A program made the position numbers and the translations under genes. Shown here in pieces: positions 25,631-36,125 of a stretch of 49,788 nt of DNA; the first letter of the stretch is position 1, and each line of letters starts with the position of its first letter. Origin of the DNA: Wenzhouxiangellaceae bacterium (GTDB taxonomy: Bacteria > Pseudomonadota > Gammaproteobacteria > Xanthomonadales > Wenzhouxiangellaceae); assembly GCA_007695005.1 (NCBI GenBank), contig REEQ01000052.1, forward strand, positions 1 through 49,788. The letters run 5' to 3'. The notes beneath the pieces were generated by a model. That model did not search any database. It saw only the letters and a program-made list of their open reading frames with translations, and had not been told where the DNA came from.

Positions 25631-25812
25631 CGCTGTCTTGAGTCTGAATCCATCAGCCCAAAATTACCACGGCGACAACAGCGGCGCAGCAGCTGCCTTG
25701 ACGAATAAACTCAATGTCGACAGCGCTGGCCCACTCTGGCTTGCAATGCTTGCCGCTGTTGCCCTACCCTGAGCGGACCAGAGTTGACTCCATCAAGGGT
25801 CGGGGCGGTGCC

Positions 25813-26874
25813 ATGGATGGCAACAGTTGCGTGCAGACGATAAGGCGAGAAGCCAATCTGGCAGCAGCCCGTATTGTTCTGACCTACGCCATCTTCGCTC
25901 TGCTCTGGATCCTGTTCTCCGACAAGGCACTTTTCCTGTTCATCAGTGATCCGGATCGTATCGTCCAGGCCAGCATCATCAAGGGCTGGGCTTTCGTGCT
26001 GATCACGGGTGCAATTCTGTTCGTCCTGGTCGCCCGGTTGATCTACCAGATCAAGCTGGCCGCTGAACAGGACCGCCGTAATCGCCAGCGAAAGGGAGCC
26101 GAGTTTCGCGCCCACAGCGAGCGCGTTCATGCCCAGCTTGAAGATCGTGTTGCCGCTCGCACTGCCGAGCTTGAGGCCGCCAACCGCGAGCTGGACGCCT
26201 TCGCTTATGCCGTATCGCACGATCTGCGCGCTCCGCTCAGGGCGATGTCGGGGTTTTCCGAAGCGCTGGTTGAAGATCACGGCGAGCAGCTCAACGGCCA
26301 GGCCCGCCAGTACCTGGACCAGATCGTACTGGCCAGCCACAAGATGAGCGAACTGATTGATGGCATCCTCGTGCTGTCACGCAGCAGTCGTAATAGCCTC
26401 GAAGTTTCCCGGGTAAACCTCAGCCGGCTTGCGCAAAGACAGATCGAGCGTCTGCGCCAGCTCGACCCGGATCGGAGGGTGGATGCAGACATCGAACCGG
26501 ACCTGATCGTGCAGGCCGATCCACCGACCATCGAGGTGGCATTGCACAATCTGCTGGAAAACGCCTGGAAATACACCGGCCACACCAGTGATCCGCGGAT
26601 CCGGGTCTATGCAGGCGACATTGACGGCGAGCCAGCCATTTGCGTCGAAGACAACGGTGCAGGATTCAACATGGCCCACGCCGACAAGCTGTTCAAAGCC
26701 TTTCAGCGCCTGCATCGACAAGACGAGTTCCCGGGTACCGGGATCGGCCTGGCTACCGTTCAACGGATCATCTGTCGTCACGGCGGGCGTATCGAAGCGA
26801 GTGCCAGCCCGGGCCAGGGCGCTTGCTTCCGCTTCAGCCTGCCGTCGAGACGCCAGAGCGAGGGCTCGCCATGA
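25813..26874 (+). CDS. Membrane sensor histidine kinase
   Basis: A 353-aa kinase. Two N-terminal membrane helices (about residues 18-37 and 58-76) frame a short conserved loop (LWILFSDKALFLF). A coiled segment leads to the HisKA domain with the phospho-acceptor His136 in AYAVSHDLRAPLRAMSGF. The ATPase domain has the N box NLLENAWKYT, VEDNGAGFN and GTGIGLATVQRI. The style is that of phytochrome-like kinases that pair with Rcp1-type regulators. I prefer the ATG at 25813, just before the first helix, to the upstream ATG at 25714. The stop overlaps the next gene by four bases, so kinase and regulator are surely coupled. Confidence 0.92.
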   Translation: MDGNSCVQTIRREANLAAARIVLTYAIFALLWILFSDKALFLFISDPDRIVQASIIKGWAFVLITGAILFVLVARLIYQIKLAAEQDRRNRQRKGAEFRAHSERVHAQLEDRVAARTAELEAANRELDAFAYAVSHDLRAPLRAMSGFSEALVEDHGEQLNGQARQYLDQIVLASHKMSELIDGILVLSRSSRNSLEVSRVNLSRLAQRQIERLRQLDPDRRVDADIEPDLIVQADPPTIEVALHNLLENAWKYTGHTSDPRIRVYAGDIDGEPAICVEDNGAGFNMAHADKLFKAFQRLHRQDEFPGTGIGLATVQRIICRHGGRIEASASPGQGACFRFSLPSRRQSEGSP

Positions 26875-27311
26875 ACGATGCAAGAGTTCTGCTGGTGGAA
26901 GACAACCCCCAGGACGAGCTGCTGACCTTGCGCGCCCTGCGCAAGGCCAGGCTGGCGAATCGCATCGATGTAGTCCGGGATGGCCAGCAAGCCCTGGACT
27001 ACTTGTTCAACCAGGCCGAATTCGCCGACAGCGCACCGCAGGAGCTGCCGGTGGTCGTACTGCTGGATATAGGCCTGCCGCGCCTGTCGGGCCTGGAAGT
27101 ATTGGAGCGGTTGCGGGCCAACCCACGAACCCAACTGCTGCCCGTCGTCGTGCTCACCTCCTCCGACGAAGCCTCTGACCGCTTGCGAGCCTACCGATCC
27201 GGCGTCAACAGCTTTGTCCGCAAGCCGGTGAACTCAGCCGACTTCACCGAAACCATCGCCCGTCTCGGGCTGTACTGGATTGCCACCAACGAGCCCCCCG
27301 ATGCCCACTGA
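26871..27311 (+). CDS. Single-domain response regulator (Rcp1-like)
   Basis: A 146-aa stand-alone receiver domain with no output domain. The acidic pocket is VEDN (residues 9-12), the phosphorylation site is Asp66 in VLLDIGLPRLSG, the Thr/Ser switch is in VVVLTSSDE and the conserved Lys in SFVRKPVN. The long insert before the phosphorylation site (FNQAEFADSAPQELP) is typical of Rcp1-like regulators that shuttle phosphate from phytochrome-type kinases. It overlaps the kinase gene by 4 bp and the following c-di-GMP gene by 11 bp, pointing to one phospho-signalling unit. Confidence 0.95.
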   Translation: MNDARVLLVEDNPQDELLTLRALRKARLANRIDVVRDGQQALDYLFNQAEFADSAPQELPVVVLLDIGLPRLSGLEVLERLRANPRTQLLPVVVLTSSDEASDRLRAYRSGVNSFVRKPVNSADFTETIARLGLYWIATNEPPDAH

Positions 27312-29433
27312 TAACCCCACGGCTGTTCGCCTGCTGATCGTCGAAGACAGCGAAGCCGACTATCTGCTCATTCAGCGGCAATTGCGCACCGAAGGAATGG
27401 TCTTCGAGTCGCTGCGGGTCGACCACTTTGATGCCGTAGACAAGGCCCTGGAGCAGCCCTGGGACGTCATCCTGTATGACTATGAAATCCCTGGCCTGGA
27501 CTTCGACGATGCCCTGCCGCTGATCAAGTCCAGGGCCACGGACACCCCCATCATCCTGGTCTCAGGCACGGTTGATGAACGTATGGCTGCCGGGCTGCTC
27601 AGGCAAGGGCTGGATGACTTTGTCCTCAAGGACAAGCTGTTGCGGCTGAGCACCGCCATTGACCGCGTGCGACGCGAACGTCTGGAACGTTCCGGTCGCC
27701 TGGCAGCTGAAGCCGAGCTACGCAAACTGGCCATGGTGGTCGAACAAAGCCCGGCAAGTATCCTGATCACCGATACTCGCCCTGCCATCGAGTATGTCAA
27801 CGATGCCTTTGTGCAAAACACAGGTTATGAACCCGAAGAGGTAATCGGGCGCAACCCGTCTGTACTCAATACCGGTAATACACCTGCATCCACCTATCGT
27901 GCGCTGTGGTCCGCGCTAAACCAGGGCCAGACATGGCGAGGCGAGTTCTACAACACCCGCAAGGACGGCAGCGTTTATGTCGAAGCGGCCGTGGTCGCGC
28001 CGATCCGGCAAGTGGACGGCAGCATCAGTCATTACGTCGCCATCAAGGATGACATCACCGCCCAGCGCGAATCCGAGGCCCTGATACATCGCCTGGCCTT
28101 TTATGATCAGCTCACCGGCCTGGCGAACCGCTCACTACTCATGGAGCGCCTGGACCAGGCAATGAACAAGTGCCGCAAAGCTGGGCAGCAAGGCGCGGTT
28201 CTGATGCTTGATATCGACAGCTTCCGCTTCATTAATGACATCCATGGCTATGACATAGGCGACCATGTGCTACGAGAATTCGGTCGCCGCCTGCAACGCG
28301 AACTGGCAGACACCGACACCGTCGCCCGCATTGGCGGCAACCACTTTGCCGTCATCGTCGAGCGGCTGGGCGCAACGGAAGCAGAGGTGACCGATCGCAT
28401 CAAGCAGCTGACGACACGGCTCCATGAGCGTGTGCAGCAACCCTGTAACCTACCCGACGGCTCCGGCCAGCTTCGCCATGCAACCAGCATGGGCATCTGC
28501 TTGTTTGACGGCCATGAGGAGGGACCGGAGACCCCGCTGAACCGGGCTGAGCTGGCCTTGCAGAAAGCCAAGGACGATGGCCGCAACATGGCACGCCAGT
28601 TCAGCCATGAACTGAAGGTTCAGGTTGAGGAGCGCGCATTGATGGAGGCCCGGCTGCGCAGTGCAGTCATCAATCGCGAGCTCGACATGCATTTGCAGTC
28701 GCAGTTCGACATCGAAGGTCGTCTGCTCGGTGCCGAGCTGTTGCTGCGCTGGCCACAGGCCGATGGCAGCTTTATCTCGCCCATGGTTTTCATCCCTTTG
28801 GCGGAAGTCACCGGCCTGATCCTGCCGATCGGGCAGCAAGTATTCGACCAGGCAATCAAGCTGCTTCAGGACTGGCAATCGAAGCCTGCCACGCGATCGC
28901 TGCAACTATCGATCAACGTCAGCGCCCGACAGTTTCACCAGCCTGATTTTGTCGACCAACTACGCACACGCTTGCAAAAGAGCACCATTGATGGCTCCCG
29001 CCTGGTGCTGGAGTTGACTGAGAGCGTTGTCCTCGACGAGTTCGGTTCAACCGGAGAAAAAATGCGCGCGATCCGCGAACTTGGGGTCGGCATCGCACTG
29101 GATGACTTCGGCAAGGGTTACTCTTCCCTGTCCTATCTCAAGCACCTGCCCTTTGACGTCCTCAAGATCGACCGTTCATTCATAGCAGACATGCTGGCAA
29201 GTCCCAGCAGCGAAGCCATCGTCCGCGCGATCCTGGCGATGGGGCATGCGCTGAAGATGCATATCATCGCCGAAGGCGTGGAAAACGAAGCGCAGTGGGA
29301 TCTGCTGCGTCGGGAGCGTTGTGCAGGGTATCAGGGCTATCTGTTTGCTCGACCGGTCGGCATGGATCAATGGCAACCGGGGGATTTTTCCGCAAACGGC
29401 AGCCCGTCGGCCCAGGTAAACCGCAAAGAATAG
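27301..29433 (+). CDS. REC-PAS-GGDEF-EAL protein, probable c-di-GMP phosphodiesterase
   Basis: A 710-aa cytosolic regulator with four domains. REC is about residues 8-125 (phospho-acceptor Asp60 in LYDYEIPG). PAS is about 140-255, with GRNPSVLNTG and DDITAQ. GGDEF is about 262-430 and EAL about 445-695. The GGDEF signature is degenerate, GGNHF at 345-349, so cyclase activity is unlikely. The EAL domain keeps Glu479 (AELLLRW), NVSARQF, LELTES, IALDDFGKGYSS, LKIDRSFI and IIAEGVEN, so it is probably an active phosphodiesterase. The ATG at 27301 lies inside the end of the receiver gene. The output would therefore be lowered c-di-GMP in response to the upstream kinase. Confidence 0.95.
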   Translation: MPTDNPTAVRLLIVEDSEADYLLIQRQLRTEGMVFESLRVDHFDAVDKALEQPWDVILYDYEIPGLDFDDALPLIKSRATDTPIILVSGTVDERMAAGLLRQGLDDFVLKDKLLRLSTAIDRVRRERLERSGRLAAEAELRKLAMVVEQSPASILITDTRPAIEYVNDAFVQNTGYEPEEVIGRNPSVLNTGNTPASTYRALWSALNQGQTWRGEFYNTRKDGSVYVEAAVVAPIRQVDGSISHYVAIKDDITAQRESEALIHRLAFYDQLTGLANRSLLMERLDQAMNKCRKAGQQGAVLMLDIDSFRFINDIHGYDIGDHVLREFGRRLQRELADTDTVARIGGNHFAVIVERLGATEAEVTDRIKQLTTRLHERVQQPCNLPDGSGQLRHATSMGICLFDGHEEGPETPLNRAELALQKAKDDGRNMARQFSHELKVQVEERALMEARLRSAVINRELDMHLQSQFDIEGRLLGAELLLRWPQADGSFISPMVFIPLAEVTGLILPIGQQVFDQAIKLLQDWQSKPATRSLQLSINVSARQFHQPDFVDQLRTRLQKSTIDGSRLVLELTESVVLDEFGSTGEKMRAIRELGVGIALDDFGKGYSSLSYLKHLPFDVLKIDRSFIADMLASPSSEAIVRAILAMGHALKMHIIAEGVENEAQWDLLRRERCAGYQGYLFARPVGMDQWQPGDFSANGSPSAQVNRKE

Positions 29434-29491
29434 TCCTGACGGCGGGTTGCTGACGCTTTCTGACGATCCGCCATCTCGCCCCGACAAGCCT

Positions 29492-29591
29492 TATACTCGT
29501 TTTATTGGCCGACCAGACCAAAAGCCCGCCCTTTGAAGCCGCCGCACCTGGGAGGAATGTGCGGGCTTCACTACCAGTCTAAGGAGAAAAC
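29492..29591 (+). promoter_or_regulatory. Leader of the borosin operon: -10-like element, alternative hairpins, strong RBS
   Basis: A TATACT box at 29492-29497 could be a -10 element; no convincing -35 is visible. In the transcribed leader AAGCCCGC (29522-29529) can pair with GCGGGCTT (29561-29568). CCGCAC (29542-29547) can instead pair with GTGCGG (29559-29564). The two stems share 29561-29564 and exclude each other. A strong Shine-Dalgarno sequence (AAGGAGA, 29581-29587) precedes the ATG at 29592. The independent promoter is inferred from the 158-bp gap after the EAL gene. Confidence 0.35.
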
Positions 29592-29807
29592 ATGTCTGAA
29601 CTCAAGCGGTTGCTGATCGATCTTGCCGAGCAGCCCGATTTGCAGAAGGCCTACAAGGCAGACCCTGAAGCCGTCATGCGAAGCTATCGCCTCAGTGAGG
29701 AGGCCATTGCCGCCATGCTGGCCAAGGATGTGGAGGCAATCAAACGTCTCAGCGGGCTGGACTCGATCCGATCAAACGGAACCGTCCAGGCTCACGATTA
29801 CCGTTAG
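29592..29807 (+). CDS. Split-borosin RiPP precursor peptide (SonA-like)
   Basis: A 71-aa peptide. Residues 1-55 look like the helical borosin-binding leader: YKADPEAVMR at 21-30, a Leu-rich helix (LSEEAIAAMLAKD) and RLSG at 52-55. A short flexible tail, LDSIRSNGTVQAHDYR, forms the candidate core. From memory, Shewanella SonA has PEAVMR and LSG at the same residue numbers and is N-methylated on the backbone at 63 and 65. Here these are Gly63 and Val65. Automatic annotation may call this a LigA-type dioxygenase subunit because of the shared helical fold, but no LigB is near. The matching methyltransferase is two genes downstream. The methylation itself is inference. Confidence 0.85.
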   Translation: MSELKRLLIDLAEQPDLQKAYKADPEAVMRSYRLSEEAIAAMLAKDVEAIKRLSGLDSIRSNGTVQAHDYR

Positions 29808-29823
29808 CAGGTAGCAGTCCGGC

Positions 29824-31569
29824 ATGTTCCGTTTCTGGGTACTGCTGGCGGTCGCACTGACCGCCCCTGCCCGGGCCGATACAGGGAGTATTCTGGACGC
29901 GGAGCAGTTCCAGTATCAACTCGATCATGCCGCCGCACTCAGTACCAGCGCGCCCTGGCGCGAAACCGAAGCGGTGCTTGATCAGCTCCGCCCCTATCTC
30001 GACAGGGGCAGCGCGCAACAGCGAGCCGAGTTCGCCTGGCTGGAAGCGCGCATCCGAGCGCTGTCCGGAGACATGCTCGGAGCACTGGAGGCAGCCGAGG
30101 CCCTGCTCCGGCAAGACTTGACACCGGAACTGCGCCTGCGCAGCCATCGCCTGGCGGCCAACGCGGCCTTGCTGGCCCGACGTTTCGAAGAGACTTTCAT
30201 CCATCTCGGCCAGGGCCTGCGAATGCTTCAGGACCCGGCCTTGCGTCCTGATGGCGAAGCCCTTTACAGCCTGGCAGCCTATGCCTACACACTGGTTGGT
30301 GAGAGCGAGCGCGGACGTCAGTTCGGAGAAATGGCGGTAGCCCTGGCAGAAACAGGCGGCGACGAGCGAGCGATTTGCACGACCAATCAGCGCCTGGCCT
30401 TTGTCCACAAGAAACTCGGCAACAATGACAATTCCCTGGAGCACTATCGCCGCGCCTTGCGATACTGTGAAACAGCTGGCGACGGCCTGATCACCGGCGT
30501 CGTGCAAAACGGCATTGGCGACCTGATGCGCCTGGCCGGCGCAGACGAAGAAGCCCGGCAGTATTTCGAGCAGGCGCTGAATCTGCTCGACGCCCACGGC
30601 TTCGACACCGGGCGGGCAGAGGCGCGCCTGTACTTCGCGCGCCTTGAGCTGGAACTCGGCAATCACGATCGGGTTCGGGAGCTGCTGCATCCCAGTCTTG
30701 AGCTGCTGTCCAATTCAGAGGTCTGGGACTACCTGGCCGAAGCCCATGCCATGCTTGGTCAGATCGCTCGGGCTGAAAACGACTACGAGGCCGCCCTGGA
30801 ACACTACGATCACAAACTCATGGCTCGCGCCCGCGCCCATGATCAAGAGCGCCGCCGCCGAATCACCTTCCTGGAGGTGGAATTCAATCTGTTGCACAAC
30901 CAGCAGCAGATTGCCTTGCTTGAGGAGCAGGCTCGGGTTCGTCAGCTGGAAGAAAGCGCGCGTCTTCAGGGGCAGCGCATCCGCAACGCGGCCTACGCCG
31001 CAGCCGGCCTGCTGATCATCTGCCTGTTGCTGTTGCTGTTGCACACCAGTCGCGAACGGCGCCGCTATCGCAGAATGTCCCAGTTCGATGGACTAACCGG
31101 CGCGCTCAACCATACCCGCTTTTTTGCCGTTGCCGGACAGCGTCTGGAGACTGCGCTGCGTCAGGACAGCTCCTTCTGGATCCTGCTGGGAGACATCGAC
31201 TTCTTCAAACAGGTCAATGATTTGCATGGCCACGCCACCGGCGACCGCATCCTGCGCCGGGTCGGTCGGCGCCTGCACGATTGCTTCGGCGCACACGGTG
31301 CAATCGGTCGCATCGGTGGCGAAGAATTCGCCATTGCCCTGAACGGCAAGGACCGGGCTGCCATCCTTGACCTGCTCGATCGCTTTCGCAGCCAGCTGGC
31401 AACTCCCAGAGACGACGCACCAACCGTTACCATGAGCTTTGGCTTGGCAGCCTGGCGCAGCCCCGGTGATTCCGTTCAGGCGATCTGCCAGCGCGCCGAC
31501 CAGGCCCTGTACCAGGCCAAGCGCGACGGCCGAAACCAGGTTGTCTGCCAGCATGATGATACCGAATGA
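29824..31569 (+). CDS. Membrane TPR-GGDEF diguanylate cyclase in the borosin operon
   Basis: A 581-aa protein. A signal peptide (1-18, cleaved after APARA) and a periplasmic TPR array (about 25-335) lead into a long helix or coiled coil (340-385) and a membrane helix (389-407). A cytoplasmic GGDEF domain follows, with DGLTGALNHTRF at 422-433, GDIDFFKQVND, and an intact GGEEF at 498-502. No RxxD inhibitory site precedes it, so product feedback is unlikely. It should make c-di-GMP in response to something bound outside. The ATG lies 16 bp after the precursor stop and its own stop is 40 bp before the methyltransferase, so the three genes form one unit. The architecture equals the broken gene at 2171. 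Confidence 0.93.
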   Translation: MFRFWVLLAVALTAPARADTGSILDAEQFQYQLDHAAALSTSAPWRETEAVLDQLRPYLDRGSAQQRAEFAWLEARIRALSGDMLGALEAAEALLRQDLTPELRLRSHRLAANAALLARRFEETFIHLGQGLRMLQDPALRPDGEALYSLAAYAYTLVGESERGRQFGEMAVALAETGGDERAICTTNQRLAFVHKKLGNNDNSLEHYRRALRYCETAGDGLITGVVQNGIGDLMRLAGADEEARQYFEQALNLLDAHGFDTGRAEARLYFARLELELGNHDRVRELLHPSLELLSNSEVWDYLAEAHAMLGQIARAENDYEAALEHYDHKLMARARAHDQERRRRITFLEVEFNLLHNQQQIALLEEQARVRQLEESARLQGQRIRNAAYAAAGLLIICLLLLLLHTSRERRRYRRMSQFDGLTGALNHTRFFAVAGQRLETALRQDSSFWILLGDIDFFKQVNDLHGHATGDRILRRVGRRLHDCFGAHGAIGRIGGEEFAIALNGKDRAAILDLLDRFRSQLATPRDDAPTVTMSFGLAAWRSPGDSVQAICQRADQALYQAKRDGRNQVVCQHDDTE

Positions 31570-31609
31570 TGATGCTTGTTTGCATTGGCGTTAGCCGTCT
31601 TTCGAGCTG

Positions 31610-32407
31610 ATGGCGGAAGGAGAGCTGGTCATTGTCGGCTGCGGTCTGCAGGCAGCCCGCCACATCAGCCGGCGTGCCCTGGCCGAAATCCACAGCTCGG
31701 ATATCGTGCTGGCTCTGGCCGAACCCTTTGCCATGGACTGGCTGCGTGAGCAGCATCAGCAAGTCATCCCTCTCGGCAAACACTATCGAGACGATCTCGA
31801 CCGTCGCCGCAGCTATCAGGCCATGCAGGACGAGATTCTGGAGCAGGTTCGGGCGGGCCACCGGACCTGCCTGGTGCTCTACGGTCACCCGGGCGTTTTT
31901 GCCCAGGTTGGACGCAAGGCACTGGCGCAGGCACGTAGCGAAGGCTACAGCGACTGGATGGAACCGGCCATCTCTGCAGCCGACTGTCTCTACGCCGATC
32001 TGGACATCGACCCTGGTGAGTACGGCATCCAGTCCCTGGAAGCCACCCAGTTCCTGATCCAGGACCGGGTGCTGGATCCAGCAGGCTTTGTCCTGCTCTG
32101 GCAACTGGCTCACACCGGCAAGCTTGACTGCACCGGCTTCGAAGCCGATCGCCGCGCCCTGCAGTGCCTGGTCGGCAAATTGAAGCGCTGGTATGCCGCC
32201 GAGCATGAGGTCATCCTCTATGAGGCACCTGTCCTGCCCATCCTCGAAGCGCGCGCCGAGCGCCTGCCACTGAGCCGCCTGGCGCTGGCCGGCATCAACG
32301 AGATCACGACCCTGGTCATCCCGCCGGCGAGGCCTGCCCGGCCGGATCATGACATGCTCGATGAGCTCATCGCTGTCCAGCTGAACCGGCCCATCGCTTT
32401 CATCTGA
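31610..32407 (+). CDS. Borosin peptide-backbone N-methyltransferase (SonM-like, trans-acting)
   Basis: A 265-aa SAM enzyme of the tetrapyrrole-methylase fold. Motifs: VIVGCGLQAARHIS (7-20), a Y-R-Y catalytic cluster (Tyr59, Arg65-67, Tyr69 in HYRDDLDRRRSYQAM), VLYGHPGVFAQVG (89-101) and ISAADCLYADLDIDPGEYG (121-139). QSLEATQFLI follows at 141-150. The SAxDCLYADLxIDP signature is that of borosin methyltransferases rather than of cobalamin or siroheme enzymes, and no tetrapyrrole genes are near. Borosin enzymes methylate backbone amides of a peptide iteratively; here the substrate would be the 71-aa peptide at 29592, in trans. The start ATG has only a weak ribosome site. Confidence 0.87.
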   Translation: MAEGELVIVGCGLQAARHISRRALAEIHSSDIVLALAEPFAMDWLREQHQQVIPLGKHYRDDLDRRRSYQAMQDEILEQVRAGHRTCLVLYGHPGVFAQVGRKALAQARSEGYSDWMEPAISAADCLYADLDIDPGEYGIQSLEATQFLIQDRVLDPAGFVLLWQLAHTGKLDCTGFEADRRALQCLVGKLKRWYAAEHEVILYEAPVLPILEARAERLPLSRLALAGINEITTLVIPPARPARPDHDMLDELIAVQLNRPIAFI

Positions 32408-32426
32408 ATTTCATCTCTGCTCAAGT

Positions 32427-32440
32427 TTGCGTTCACGCAA
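32427..32440. promoter_or_regulatory. Palindrome upstream of the second kinase-regulator pair
   Basis: TTGCGT-TC-ACGCAA is a perfect 6-bp inverted repeat in the 138-bp gap between the methyltransferase and the histidine kinase. It has the size of a dimeric regulator site. No clear promoter hexamers were identified around it. Confidence 0.35.
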
Positions 32441-32545
32441 GGACCGCAACAGCTGCCATCGAAGTCGGTTACGATCCGCCCCTGGTCTTTGCGGTCTCGA
32501 GGCTTCGGCACCGTCGGCCGCGTCAGCCCGCAGGAGCCCGTCTGC

Positions 32546-34144
32546 ATGTTTCGCCAACGTCTGATTTACTCTCTGGGTGCGCTACTGGCCATTATCCTCA
32601 CCCAGAGCCTGATCGCACTTTGGGCCTTTGACGCCGTCAATCGGCAAATCGATCACAGCCGAAGCTCGCAGCAGATGCTGACCGAACTGCTGGAGTTCAG
32701 AGCCGACTCCAAGCGCCTGAAAGTCTGGCTGGCTGAATACCTGATCACCGAAAAGCAGGAAACAGCTCCGCGCGACGAGCTGTTTGCCAGGATGCTGGGT
32801 CAGCTGGAGCGCTTGCAGGCGCTGTCTGCAACCGCATCAGACCCGGCCCAGCCAGGCGCAAGCCCGGCGATCCACGCAAGCGACGCCAACATCGAACTGC
32901 TGCGCGGCAATCTCGAGAACCTGCAGCGCGCCCTGCAGACTCGCGAGATCAACCGACTTGAAACCGATGCCGCCCGCTGGCAAACCCTGATGGAGCTGTT
33001 CGACAAGTTCCAGGGCACGGACATCGCCGAACTGGTCAATGAATCGGTGAAGCTGCAGCAGCAACGCACCGAGCAGGCGGATGACGCCGCCCGACGTGCA
33101 CTGCGCCTGACCTTCATCAGCCTGCTGGTATCCGTTGGCCTTGCCCTGCTGTTGTTCCTTGCCCTGAGCATGCGCCTGTCGCGTCATCTCAACCAGCCAC
33201 TGGAGCGGCTGCTGGCCGGCACAGACCGCATTGCCAACGGCGACTACAGTCAGCCAATTGCCGAAACCGGCGCCGGCGAGTTCGCCGAGCTGGCCCGGCG
33301 CTTCAACCGCATGGCCAGCGCCGTTCAGCAGGCCGAAACCCGCCAGCGCCAGCTGCAGGACGCGACCGAGGATCGAGTGCGCGAACGCACCGCCCAGCTA
33401 CAGGAAGTCGTCAACCAGCTCCAGCAGTCCGAAGCCCGCCAGCAGCGCTTCGTGATGGATATATCGCACGAGCTGCGCACACCCACCACCACCATTGTCG
33501 GCGAGGCGGAGCTGGCACTACGCAGCAGCGCAGCCGATGACCCGCGCCGGCCCGGCCTCGAACACATCGTCGATTGCTGCCGCCAGCTCGCTTCGCGAAT
33601 CGACGACCTGCTCATGCTTGGTCGCGGCCATCATGCGCTGGTCTCGGTACGCCTGCAAAGCCAGACCATCAGCGCTGTCTATACGCATGTCGGCGACAGA
33701 ATCCGCACACAGGTGGCGCATCATCCCGTCCAGCTGCGCATCCAGCCCCTGGCCACCCCGACCGGCCTGGATCCTGAGCGCTGGACCTTGCTGGTCGACC
33801 TCGAAAAGCTGGATCTGGTCTGCCGCATCATTACCGAGAATGCGCTGCAGTACCGCTGTCAATCCGAGCAGCTGGAAGTGGCCGGCACGGTCATGGACGA
33901 GCAGCTAACGATCGAACTGATCGACCAGGGCCTGGGTCTGAGCCCGGAAGAAATCGAGCAGCTCTTTCAGCGCCACTTTCGCGGCCAGCGCGCCCGAGCC
34001 GAACGGCCCGACGGACTGGGTATCGGTCTGCCCATCGCCCGCAGCCTGATGCAGGCTCACGACGGAGACATCCAGCTACTGCCGAATGCGCCGGCCGGCG
34101 CCCGCGCCGTGCTCACCCTGCCCTGCTTCGAGCCGGAGGATTAA
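32546..34144 (+). CDS. HAMP-containing sensor histidine kinase
   Basis: A 532-aa transmembrane kinase. Helix 1 is at 5-27, followed by a helical periplasmic sensor region (about 30-185), helix 2 (189-208), HAMP (about 209-262) and a coiled coil. HisKA has His308 in DISHELRTPTTTIVGEAELAL, and the ATPase domain has the N box IITENALQYR, DQGLGLSPEE and GLGIGLPIARSL. The ATG at 32546 has AGGAG nine bases upstream; a 19-codon extension upstream is not supported. The response regulator follows after two bases. Whether this pair controls the borosin genes just upstream cannot be told from sequence. Confidence 0.94.
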   Translation: MFRQRLIYSLGALLAIILTQSLIALWAFDAVNRQIDHSRSSQQMLTELLEFRADSKRLKVWLAEYLITEKQETAPRDELFARMLGQLERLQALSATASDPAQPGASPAIHASDANIELLRGNLENLQRALQTREINRLETDAARWQTLMELFDKFQGTDIAELVNESVKLQQQRTEQADDAARRALRLTFISLLVSVGLALLLFLALSMRLSRHLNQPLERLLAGTDRIANGDYSQPIAETGAGEFAELARRFNRMASAVQQAETRQRQLQDATEDRVRERTAQLQEVVNQLQQSEARQQRFVMDISHELRTPTTTIVGEAELALRSSAADDPRRPGLEHIVDCCRQLASRIDDLLMLGRGHHALVSVRLQSQTISAVYTHVGDRIRTQVAHHPVQLRIQPLATPTGLDPERWTLLVDLEKLDLVCRIITENALQYRCQSEQLEVAGTVMDEQLTIELIDQGLGLSPEEIEQLFQRHFRGQRARAERPDGLGIGLPIARSLMQAHDGDIQLLPNAPAGARAVLTLPCFEPED

Positions 34145-34146
34145 CC

Positions 34147-34830
34147 ATGAAGATCATCATCGTTGAAGACGACCCGCGGGTTGGCGATTTCCTCCGCCGC
34201 GGACTGGATGCCGAGGGCCACAGCACCGAGCTGGTCTGCGACGGCCGCCAGGCCCTGGCATTCATCCGCCATGGCGAGCCCGACCTGGTCATTCTTGATC
34301 GCATGCTGCCTGGCATTGACGGCATCCAGATCTGCACCGAGATTCGCAGCCTGGGCCTGCCCTGCCGCATTCTGATGCTCTCGGCTCTGGCTGAAGTCGA
34401 GGACCGGGTCAAGGGCCTGCGCAGCGGAGCCGACGATTACCTGAGCAAGCCTTTCCATCTCGAAGAGTTGCTGGCCCGCATTGACGCGGTGATGCAGCGT
34501 GATCGCCAGGCCCAGCCACGCGACACCGTGCTGCGCTATGCCGACCTGGCCATGGACCTGGAGCGTTATACGGTCAGTCGCGGAGAACGCACGCTGGGCT
34601 TCACCGCCAAGGAGCTGAAGATTCTTGAGCTGTTGCTGCGCAACCCGGAGCGCGTGCTCAGTCGGGAACGCATCCTGAACCAGGTCTGGGGCATGAATGA
34701 AGACCCCTTGACCAATGTCGTCGACGTCTACATGGCCCGGCTGCGCAAGAAGATCGACACGGATGGTCTGACTCGACTGATCCATACCCGGCGGGGGCTG
34801 GGGTATGTGTTGTCGTCTAGCGGCAGCTGA
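34147..34830 (+). CDS. OmpR-family response regulator
   Basis: A 227-aa DNA-binding regulator with a receiver domain (1-120; VEDDP, phospho-acceptor Asp51 in LVILDRMLPGIDG, MLSALAE, KPFHLEEL). A winged-helix domain (about 128-225) follows with GFTAKELKILELLLRNPERVLSRE, the recognition-helix region VVDVYMARLRKKID and the wing RRGLGYVL. It is the cognate partner of the HAMP kinase two bases upstream. A GC-rich hairpin (CCCGGCC/GGCCGGG, 34841-34860) lies 10 bp after the stop without a clear T-run. Confidence 0.96.
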   Translation: MKIIIVEDDPRVGDFLRRGLDAEGHSTELVCDGRQALAFIRHGEPDLVILDRMLPGIDGIQICTEIRSLGLPCRILMLSALAEVEDRVKGLRSGADDYLSKPFHLEELLARIDAVMQRDRQAQPRDTVLRYADLAMDLERYTVSRGERTLGFTAKELKILELLLRNPERVLSRERILNQVWGMNEDPLTNVVDVYMARLRKKIDTDGLTRLIHTRRGLGYVLSSSGS

Positions 34831-34874
34831 GCAGAAATGCCCCGGCCGCGCTGGGCCGGGCTTCGGTTTGGATG

Positions 34875-34906
34875 AAAAAACCGGCCACCTTGATGGTGGC
34901 CGGTTT
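34875..34906 (-). terminator. Rho-independent terminator of the NTF2-like gene
   Basis: A 12-bp perfect stem (AAACCGGCCACC at 34878-34889 with GGTGGCCGGTTT at 34895-34906) has a 5-nt loop. Read on the minus strand it is followed by six T residues (complement of 34875-34880), just downstream of the minus-strand gene ending at 34932. It may also block read-through from the plus-strand regulator. Confidence 0.85.
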
Positions 34907-34931
34907 GGTTGCGATAAAGCGATTGCGCCAA

Positions 34932-35486
34932 TCAGCCGGTGAAAGGCAGCGACGAATGATGCAGCACGATGCGCAGCTGGCCATCATCGAAGCGCTGGAA
35001 GCCCCAGGTCTTGTCCACCTTGGTGGTGTTGCCGTCCGCGTCGGTCAGCATCACATGCCCCATGGTCAGCGCCATCTGGCCGTTGATAACCACGCCGGCA
35101 TTCTCGATCTGGAAAGATTCCCAGCCCTTCAGGGCAAAACCCGGATCACCCAGCCGGTCGTTGCCGCCGACGAAGTACGACAAGGCATACTCCTTCTGGT
35201 TGCGGAAGGTGTGCTCACCGCTGGCCAGGGTCGGCTTGAACAGCACTTCGCCATGCTGGAAGGCATAGGCCGTTTCAAGCACGGAGCGGGCCGTCTGCTG
35301 CGCCTTCTCCAGGCCGCCGTAGTTGAAGTCACGGCTGATCTGGATCAGCGCCTCGCCCCAGGCCTGCTGTGCCGCCAGCACTTCGGCCTCGGTAATCTTG
35401 TTCCGATCCCCGTAACCGGCCATCGCCGAATGGCTCAACAACGCAGCGCCAACAGCAGCAGTCAGCAAACAAATCTTGGTACGCAT
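34932..35486 (-). CDS. Secreted NTF2/SnoaL-like protein
   Basis: A 184-aa exported protein. The signal peptide is MRTKICLLTAAVGAALLSHSAMA, then a cone-shaped NTF2-like domain. Recognisable segments are ITEAEVLAAQQAWGEALI, EVLFKPTLASGEHTFR, ALSYFVGGN, ENAGVVINGQMALTMGHVM and the C-terminal LRIVLHHSSLPF. Homologues are sometimes annotated as phosphoribosyl-AMP cyclohydrolase, which I think is a misannotation because the HisI motifs are missing. The function is unknown. The ATG at 35486 has GAGGAGG upstream and replaces a longer 20-codon extension. Confidence 0.88.
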   Translation of the reverse strand: MRTKICLLTAAVGAALLSHSAMAGYGDRNKITEAEVLAAQQAWGEALIQISRDFNYGGLEKAQQTARSVLETAYAFQHGEVLFKPTLASGEHTFRNQKEYALSYFVGGNDRLGDPGFALKGWESFQIENAGVVINGQMALTMGHVMLTDADGNTTKVDKTWGFQRFDDGQLRIVLHHSSLPFTG

Positions 35487-35651
35487 GTCTTTGACCTCCT
35501 CTAGCAAAGTGATGGATTCATCGCCAGCCCGGATCATCCGGAGCACCTCTGCGACGGTGATCAGACTAAAGGTCGGACATTAACACCGTCGATCAGTCAC
35601 GGTTAACTCCCTCTGAGCGCTGGATTAAAACAACATGAACGGGGCTGTGAG

Positions 35652-36125
35652 TCAAACGAATGCGACCCAGCGACCGGCCAGGACCACGGCCACCCACAGG
35701 AGCAAGGAGCTGGCTGCCAGCAGGCGCAGCACGGCTGATGCCGGCCGGCCCGCCTTGACCCGCTGCCACGGGGCGCTCAGGTGGACCACGGCAATATTGA
35801 TCATGACCAGGACCATCAGCCCAAGCTTCAGCAAGAAGGCACTGTTGCCGAGATAATGCGATGGCTGGACGCTGAACAGAACCAATCCCGACAGCACTGC
35901 CGCGATCAAGGCGAACCCGGCCAGTCGGCTCAAGACTTGCACCAGCGGCGCCAGCGCCAGGCTGCGAAACAAACCCAGCAATCGCAAATCCAGCACCAGC
36001 ACAAACCCAATCAAGGCGCCCAGGGCAAGAATGTGGGCCGCACTCAGCCACGGATAATGCTGGCCAATCAGCGCGGGCGCGCCTGACAACCAGCCATCCA
36101 GGCGCGCCCCCAGGGCATCGATCAT
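35652..36125 (-). CDS. DUF6644-type membrane protein
   Basis: A 157-aa protein with four predicted helices (AAHILALGALIGFVLVLDLRLLGL, AGFALIAAVLSGLVLF, FLLKLGLMVLVMINIAVVHL, LRLLAASSLLLWVAVVLAG). It resembles the small CopD/DUF2214-like proteins that travel with DUF6152 lipocalin-sized exported proteins. That is the case here: the DUF6152-like gene is 53 bp upstream on the same strand. A link to copper or redox traffic at the membrane is possible but not shown by the sequence. Confidence 0.78.
   Translation of the reverse strand: MIDALGARLDGWLSGAPALIGQHYPWLSAAHILALGALIGFVLVLDLRLLGLFRSLALAPLVQVLSRLAGFALIAAVLSGLVLFSVQPSHYLGNSAFLLKLGLMVLVMINIAVVHLSAPWQRVKAGRPASAVLRLLAASSLLLWVAVVLAGRWVAFV

Follow-up and report, generated by a model that had tools for sequence, protein, structure and literature searches.

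What function should be assigned to a small peptide gene and a methyltransferase gene when a predicted membrane receptor is encoded between them? The question is raised by positions 29592-32407 of a 49,788-nucleotide stretch of DNA from a Wenzhouxiangellaceae bacterium (contig REEQ01000052.1 of assembly GCA_007695005.1), here called the window. The original prediction had placed a split borosin locus there, that is, a precursor peptide and a separate enzyme that methylates its backbone amides. Both open reading frames lie where it had put them, but it had omitted the third gene, which encodes a TPR-GGDEF protein and occupies 62% of that interval. All three genes are on one strand, with 16 bases between the peptide gene and the middle gene and 40 bases between the middle gene and the enzyme gene; one gene stands between precursor and enzyme, so their adjacency is loose. 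Our reading is that the borosin pair is functionally coupled to the receptor, and as a whole we give it a probability of roughly 0.72.

The identity of the pair is the firmest part of this reading. In a search of the PDB the enzyme matched SonM (E 4e-60) and fungal enzymes of the OphMA type (E about 2e-34 to 4e-32), and all 25 of its matches at E 0.001 or better were borosin methyltransferases. The motifs YGHPGVF and SAADCLYADLDIDP and the residues Y59, R65 and Y69 are present as originally described; these three residues align with Y58, R67 and Y71 of SonM and are invariant in 26 aligned enzyme sequences. Mutation of SonM Y58, R67, Y71 and Y93 reduces catalysis (PMC8429565), and the window and 26 of the 27 relatives fetched from the family retain all four, the 27th being a fragment without that part. 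Pfam TP_methylase exceeded its cut-off for the enzyme, whereas the NCBIfam models for YabN, precorrin-3B and siroheme enzymes scored 15-32 bits against cut-offs of 391-525. Indeed, no NCBIfam model reached its cut-off for either protein, in keeping with the expectation that routine annotation would overlook the pathway, and PHROGs matched neither. Clustering with cobalamin or siroheme enzymes had been named as the outcome that would speak against a borosin; none of these enzymes was among the 25 PDB matches, and the tree set the borosin enzymes apart from the two other TP-methylases of the host genome, with weak support (77) and long outgroup branches. On PDB matches, NCBIfam scores and tree together, we reject a siroheme or cobalamin enzyme.

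The peptide matched SonA chains in the PDB (E 4e-8 to 2e-7) and exceeded the Pfam LigA cut-off (28 against 25.3 bits, E 2.5e-6). PEAVMR at residues 25-30 and LSG at residues 53-55 were found as predicted, and the residue-for-residue line-up of the leader with SonA holds without a gap over residues 2-61 (E 5e-8). Given that the leader is SonA-like, as expected of a borosin-binding domain, that the enzyme is SonM-like, that the four active-site residues studied by mutation are conserved and that precursor and enzyme are separate genes, the split borosin reading is upheld, and by sequence comparison the pair is very probably a type IV split borosin whose enzyme methylates the peptide backbone. 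SonA is methylated at Leu63 and Ile65 (PMC11285071); by register with these, G63 and V65 are the most likely methylated residues of the window peptide.

The middle protein carries a GGDEF domain (1.7e-35) and TPR repeats (TPR_12, 1.3e-15) according to Pfam. Its N-terminus resembles a signal peptide; in the hydrophobicity scan it fell under the threshold in the window and over it in many relatives. The diguanylate cyclase active site reads GGEEF at residue 498, and the RxxD inhibitory site is absent. From these features we infer a periplasmic TPR domain, one transmembrane helix and a cytoplasmic cyclase. Two cysteines of its TPR region, residues 185 and 215, are shared by every one of the 45 TPR-GGDEF receptors aligned and possibly form a disulfide. 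The tree places two paralogous TPR-GGDEF proteins from elsewhere in the host genome (L176 and L177, on contigs C204 and C208) among the receptors of the cassettes. Searches of that genome turned up a single precursor and a single clear borosin enzyme, with no precursor gene found near either paralogue; these two proteins may be orphan receptors.

Within the Wenzhouxiangellaceae, the enzyme was found at E 0.001 or better in 22 of 43 genomes, the host genome included, two of the 22 being weak matches. Around these matches 27 loci were fetched, one of which is a fragment at a contig end; the other 26 were compared with the window (L036 and L061 duplicate one region). Peptide and enzyme occur together in all 26 loci with a complete enzyme, as in the window, and peptide, TPR-GGDEF gene and enzyme occur together in 18 of these 27. 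The window's gene order is kept in 17 of the 18; in L040 the peptide follows the enzyme, with a TPR-GGDEF gene on each side. The other nine loci (L051-L059) have the order GGDEF protein, flavin amine oxidase, peptide, enzyme. Their GGDEF proteins form one cluster, and a TPR identity for the sensors of this clade (clade B) was rejected, as the two scanned with Pfam are 7TMR-DISM-GGDEF proteins. Flanking genes mostly differ among the family loci, with some subsets sharing a few, for example a recQ-type helicase in five loci.

Beyond the family, we scanned named genomes and took the best 80 of 559 related stretches, chosen by similarity to the window locus. They come from Luteimonas, Lysobacter, Pseudoxanthomonas, Rubrivivax, Shewanella, Alteromonas, Colwellia, Luteibacter and other genera, and of their 82 enzymes 77 have a GGDEF domain within 3.5 kb (fused to the enzyme in 22) and five lie near a contig end. 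Because these loci had been chosen by similarity, even samples of the class and the phylum were added. The enzyme was present in 10 of 369 genomes of the class sample (host genome included), and the nine other loci divide into two with GGDEF, six without and one near a contig end. In the phylum sample it was present in 15 of 398 genomes (host genome and two from the class sample included); 11 of the 14 newly fetched enzymes have GGDEF, two do not and one is near a contig end. Three loci without GGDEF (L154, L195 and L197) nevertheless have a TPR histidine kinase directly after the peptide. Furthermore, 20 hand-picked loci from two related groups contain 24 enzymes, of which 12 are accompanied by a TPR kinase, 10 by TPR-GGDEF and two by neither, so that 22 of 24 have a sensor; in one of the two (L232) a TPR open reading frame is cut by the contig end. 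Pfam found both TPR and kinase domains in L154, L195, L223, L224, L229 and L242.

For an overall count we used 121 enzymes, the window included and nine repeated loci removed, a set in which loci chosen by similarity dominate. A precursor is recognisable beside 99 of them, and in 96 of these 99 a sensor lies within 3.5 kb (95 of 98 if an identical pair is counted once). By classes assigned on profile scores, the 96 sensors comprise 63 TPR-GGDEF proteins, 20 fused to the methyltransferase, 10 DISM-like GGDEF proteins and three TPR kinases; the 10 DISM-like sensors are those of the nine family loci and that of L138, which bears the label by profile score only and has its GGDEF gene on the other strand. 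Two of the three loci without a counted sensor are near a contig end, and the third (L160, with a weak precursor) has none. The remaining 22 enzymes, beside which no precursor is recognisable, include 13 with a sensor, four near a contig end and five with none.

Since output domains are exchanged beside a retained sensor, GGDEF or histidine kinase, these loci point to the sensor, and not c-di-GMP (cyclic di-GMP), as the constant of the system. In the enzyme tree (FastTree, 121 rows and two outgroup rows), the receptor is upstream in all 13 rows of the smallest starred set around the window, and the fused form requires two changes. The DISM clade falls in a starred group of 18 rows together with nine rows without GGDEF, the three TPR-kinase loci of this set among them, and because it groups with TPR-kinase and other GGDEF-free rows we suggest that sensors have been exchanged. 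Receptor distances correlate with enzyme distances (r 0.86 over 93 pairs, with none of 2000 permutations as high).

The C-terminal tail of the peptide, the predicted core, behaves differently from group to group. In the window's layout (TPR_up) and the fused group, all 39 sequences, that of the window among them, have I or V at position 65 and most have G, S or H at position 63; the tail follows roughly the pattern N-x-x-[IV]-x-A-[HY]-[DE]. Mean entropies of the last ten columns and of the leader are 1.53 and 1.54 bits in the window's group (19 sequences), 1.17 and 0.97 in 20 fused sequences, 1.30 and 1.09 in nine DISM sequences, and 1.95 and 0.96 in 16 of Shewanella type; by this measure a variable tail is seen in the Shewanella group but not in the window's. 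The type of tail also varies with the class of receptor, being hydrophobic and short beside 7TMR-DISM and longer and acidic in many loci ordered enzyme, peptide, receptor. In partial Mantel tests, which are known to overstate significance, tail distance followed sensor distance across 80 loci once GGDEF, enzyme and leader distances had been partialled out (partial r 0.38, 0/1000), and across the 36 loci with the receptor downstream (TPR_down; partial r 0.44, 0/1000).

We propose the following model. The locus would be a three-gene split borosin cassette of a precursor, a membrane receptor with diguanylate cyclase output and a SonM-type enzyme. By homology, the helical leader of the peptide would dock on the enzyme, which would transfer methyl groups from S-adenosylmethionine to backbone amides of the C-terminal tail. 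A protease from outside the cassette may then free the short methylated tail, and methylation could give this tail both stability and membrane passage, so that a dedicated exporter would not be needed; no transporter or protease was found by a Pfam scan of the eight window genes between 25714 and 34830, which we count in favour of the model. Finally, the predicted periplasmic TPR domain would bind the mature tail and c-di-GMP synthesis by the cytoplasmic GGEEF domain would change, while related cassettes may work in an equivalent way through a histidine kinase. We judge it likely that the pair is functionally coupled to the receptor. Our best single guess, and a tentative one, is that the receptor takes the mature peptide as its ligand. 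More speculative again is the general form of the idea, in which proteobacterial split borosins are autoinducer-like signals that combine a methylated peptide, a dedicated periplasmic receptor and c-di-GMP or phosphorelay output, with methylation replacing an exporter.

Several observations weigh against this model. Export and proteolysis are not accounted for by the cassette, and the correlation of receptor and enzyme distances could arise from shared ancestry alone. In the 44 loci of the window's and the fused groups, the tail did not follow the sensor (partial r 0.024, 361/1000) but tracked GGDEF (0.243, 0/1000) and the enzyme (0.262, 5/1000); because covariation of tail and sensor is not seen in this subgroup, to which the window belongs, we do not accept it as proof that the ligand is bound. 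Moreover, five of the nine class-sample enzymes have no sensor, four of the five also lacking a recognisable precursor, which rules out a universal linkage of enzyme and sensor. The fused form, in turn, puts the enzyme beside a cytoplasmic GGDEF domain, which would suit a model of cytoplasmic control as well. In such a model the receptor controls biosynthesis: it would sense some other periplasmic cue, its c-di-GMP or phosphorelay output or its direct contact with the enzyme would switch maturation, and the peptide would be an effector and not the ligand. The union of enzyme and cyclase in one protein and, in the window's subgroup, a tail that tracks GGDEF and enzyme rather than the sensor speak for this model, but it sits poorly with a TPR sensor that is retained while GGDEF and histidine kinase are swapped, and with a tail that, in the window's group, is conserved to about the same degree as the leader; we consider it unlikely.

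We are more doubtful still that the product is a borosin of the ordinary sort, such as an antimicrobial or one related to metals, and the sensor a plain regulator carried in a mobile or co-inherited cassette. Signalling genes are abundant in this 3.3-Mb genome, and the cassette lies within a run of them. However, with 39 GGDEF matches over the cut-off and three full-length TPR-GGDEF genes in 3.31 Mb, the rough probability that such a gene lies by chance within 3.5 kb of a given gene, both sides counted, is about 9% for GGDEF and below 1% for TPR-GGDEF, against the 96 of 99 observed, and several different sensor classes occur beside the pair. Finally, although Pfam LigA and TP_methylase both exceed their cut-offs, an accidental pairing of a LigA-like protein with a tetrapyrrole methylase would hardly give 25 borosin enzymes in 25 PDB matches, such low NCBIfam scores and a pair kept together in 26 of 26 complete family loci and the window, and we regard this as extremely improbable.

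The features of the locus are collected in Table 1. A scan of 29400-32600 found no promoter-like site on the + strand and no terminator-like site, and Rfam gave nothing at its gathering score within 27000-36000.

Table 1. Features of the cassette in the window, with the evidence for each.
Feature	Position	Strand	Evidence
Shine-Dalgarno-like AAGGAG, 5' of the peptide ATG	29581..29586	+	Sequence
Precursor peptide gene, SonA-like split borosin, 71 aa	29592..29807	+	PDB SonA match; Pfam LigA; kept beside enzyme in family
C-terminal tail, residues 56-71, predicted core	29757..29804	+	Register with SonA Leu63, Ile65
Predicted methylation site G63	29778..29780	+	Register with SonA
Predicted methylation site V65	29784..29786	+	Register with SonA
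TPR-transmembrane-GGDEF protein, 581 aa, predicted membrane receptor and diguanylate cyclase	29824..31569	+	Pfam; hydrophobicity scan
Signal-peptide-like N-terminus, residues 1-18, ARA before D19	29824..29877	+	Read from sequence
Transmembrane segment, residues 386-412	30979..31059	+	Hydrophobicity scan; one strong hydrophobic segment
GGDEF domain of middle protein	31081..31539	+	Pfam
SonM-type peptide backbone N-methyltransferase, 265 aa, active-site Y59, R65, Y69, Y91	31610..32407	+	PDB SonM; residue alignment

The surrounding run of signalling genes (25714-34830) has a kinase, a response regulator and a GGDEF-EAL protein before the cassette and a kinase and an OmpR-type regulator after it; the window of 50 kb contains four GGDEF domains. 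The two-component genes and the upstream GGDEF-EAL protein were left out of the cassette because they do not cluster with genes in the flanks of its relatives. Other genes were noted at related loci. The flavin amine oxidase-like gene beside the precursor in nine loci (for example L058:6990-8534; PF01593 in both proteins scanned) encodes a candidate for a further tailoring enzyme. A family of proteins of about 170 residues is found upstream of the enzyme in 11 loci (L112, L122, L124, L132, L135, L187, L230, L235, L237, L238 and L241), with 14 proteins in all, L124 and L238 repeating each other; the three scanned are GNAT acetyltransferases, perhaps another tailoring step. Tandem borosin enzymes precede a single precursor and a TPR histidine kinase in L224 (7119-8823) and L226, and L198 (5340-8864) encodes a protein of 1174 residues that begins with a borosin-like methylase domain, the rest being unrecognised.

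Split borosins are already known, and the literature already records one borosin architecture with a GGDEF domain, named in the legend of Figure 1 of PMC11395268. That architecture is perhaps the fused form found here, whereas the window's receptor and enzyme are separate genes, and the passage of the legend is silent on sensors and function. It was the only result of our literature search for GGDEF paired with borosin, or with a ribosomally synthesised and post-translationally modified peptide (RiPP) and an N-methyltransferase. PMC8429565, which stated in 2021 that none of the type IV pathways had yet been linked to a final natural product, uses none of the words GGDEF, diguanylate and c-di-GMP in its main text. 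Neither the receptor association nor the kinase form was found in the literature searched, which did not extend to the surveys Imani 2022 and Cho 2022. With a membrane sensor next to almost all of the precursor-bearing enzymes examined, c-di-GMP or kinase signalling offers itself as a concrete and testable function, and the receptor, as a third mark, could change how such clusters are mined. If our reading is true, RiPP chemistry would be tied to second-messenger control in many Gammaproteobacteria, including the genetically tractable Shewanella. The more speculative autoinducer-like role, if true, would provide bacterial borosins with a function and add a new class of peptide signalling to those of Gram-negative bacteria.

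The RRNPP peptide receptors of Bacillota are TPR-containing proteins that act in the cytoplasm. By description, these systems, for example Rgg/SHP (PMC13361665, PMC12445099), resemble our proposal in pairing a short ribosomal peptide with a receptor; in the window, by contrast, the TPR domain is predicted to be periplasmic and the peptide to be backbone-methylated. The methyltransferase of fungal OphMA is homologous to that of the window (E about 2e-34), but precursor and enzyme are one protein there (PMC8429565). SonM-SonA of Shewanella oneidensis, a type IV system (PMC8429565), has its precursor and enzyme as separate proteins, as in the window, and shares with it the gapless leader over residues 2-61 and the conserved active-site residues. 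In the Shewanella relatives that we fetched, a TPR-GGDEF gene likewise adjoins the pair (by Pfam for L105). The two systems differ in their tail sequences and in gene order, which is enzyme, peptide, receptor in the SonM-SonA type and peptide, receptor, enzyme in the window.

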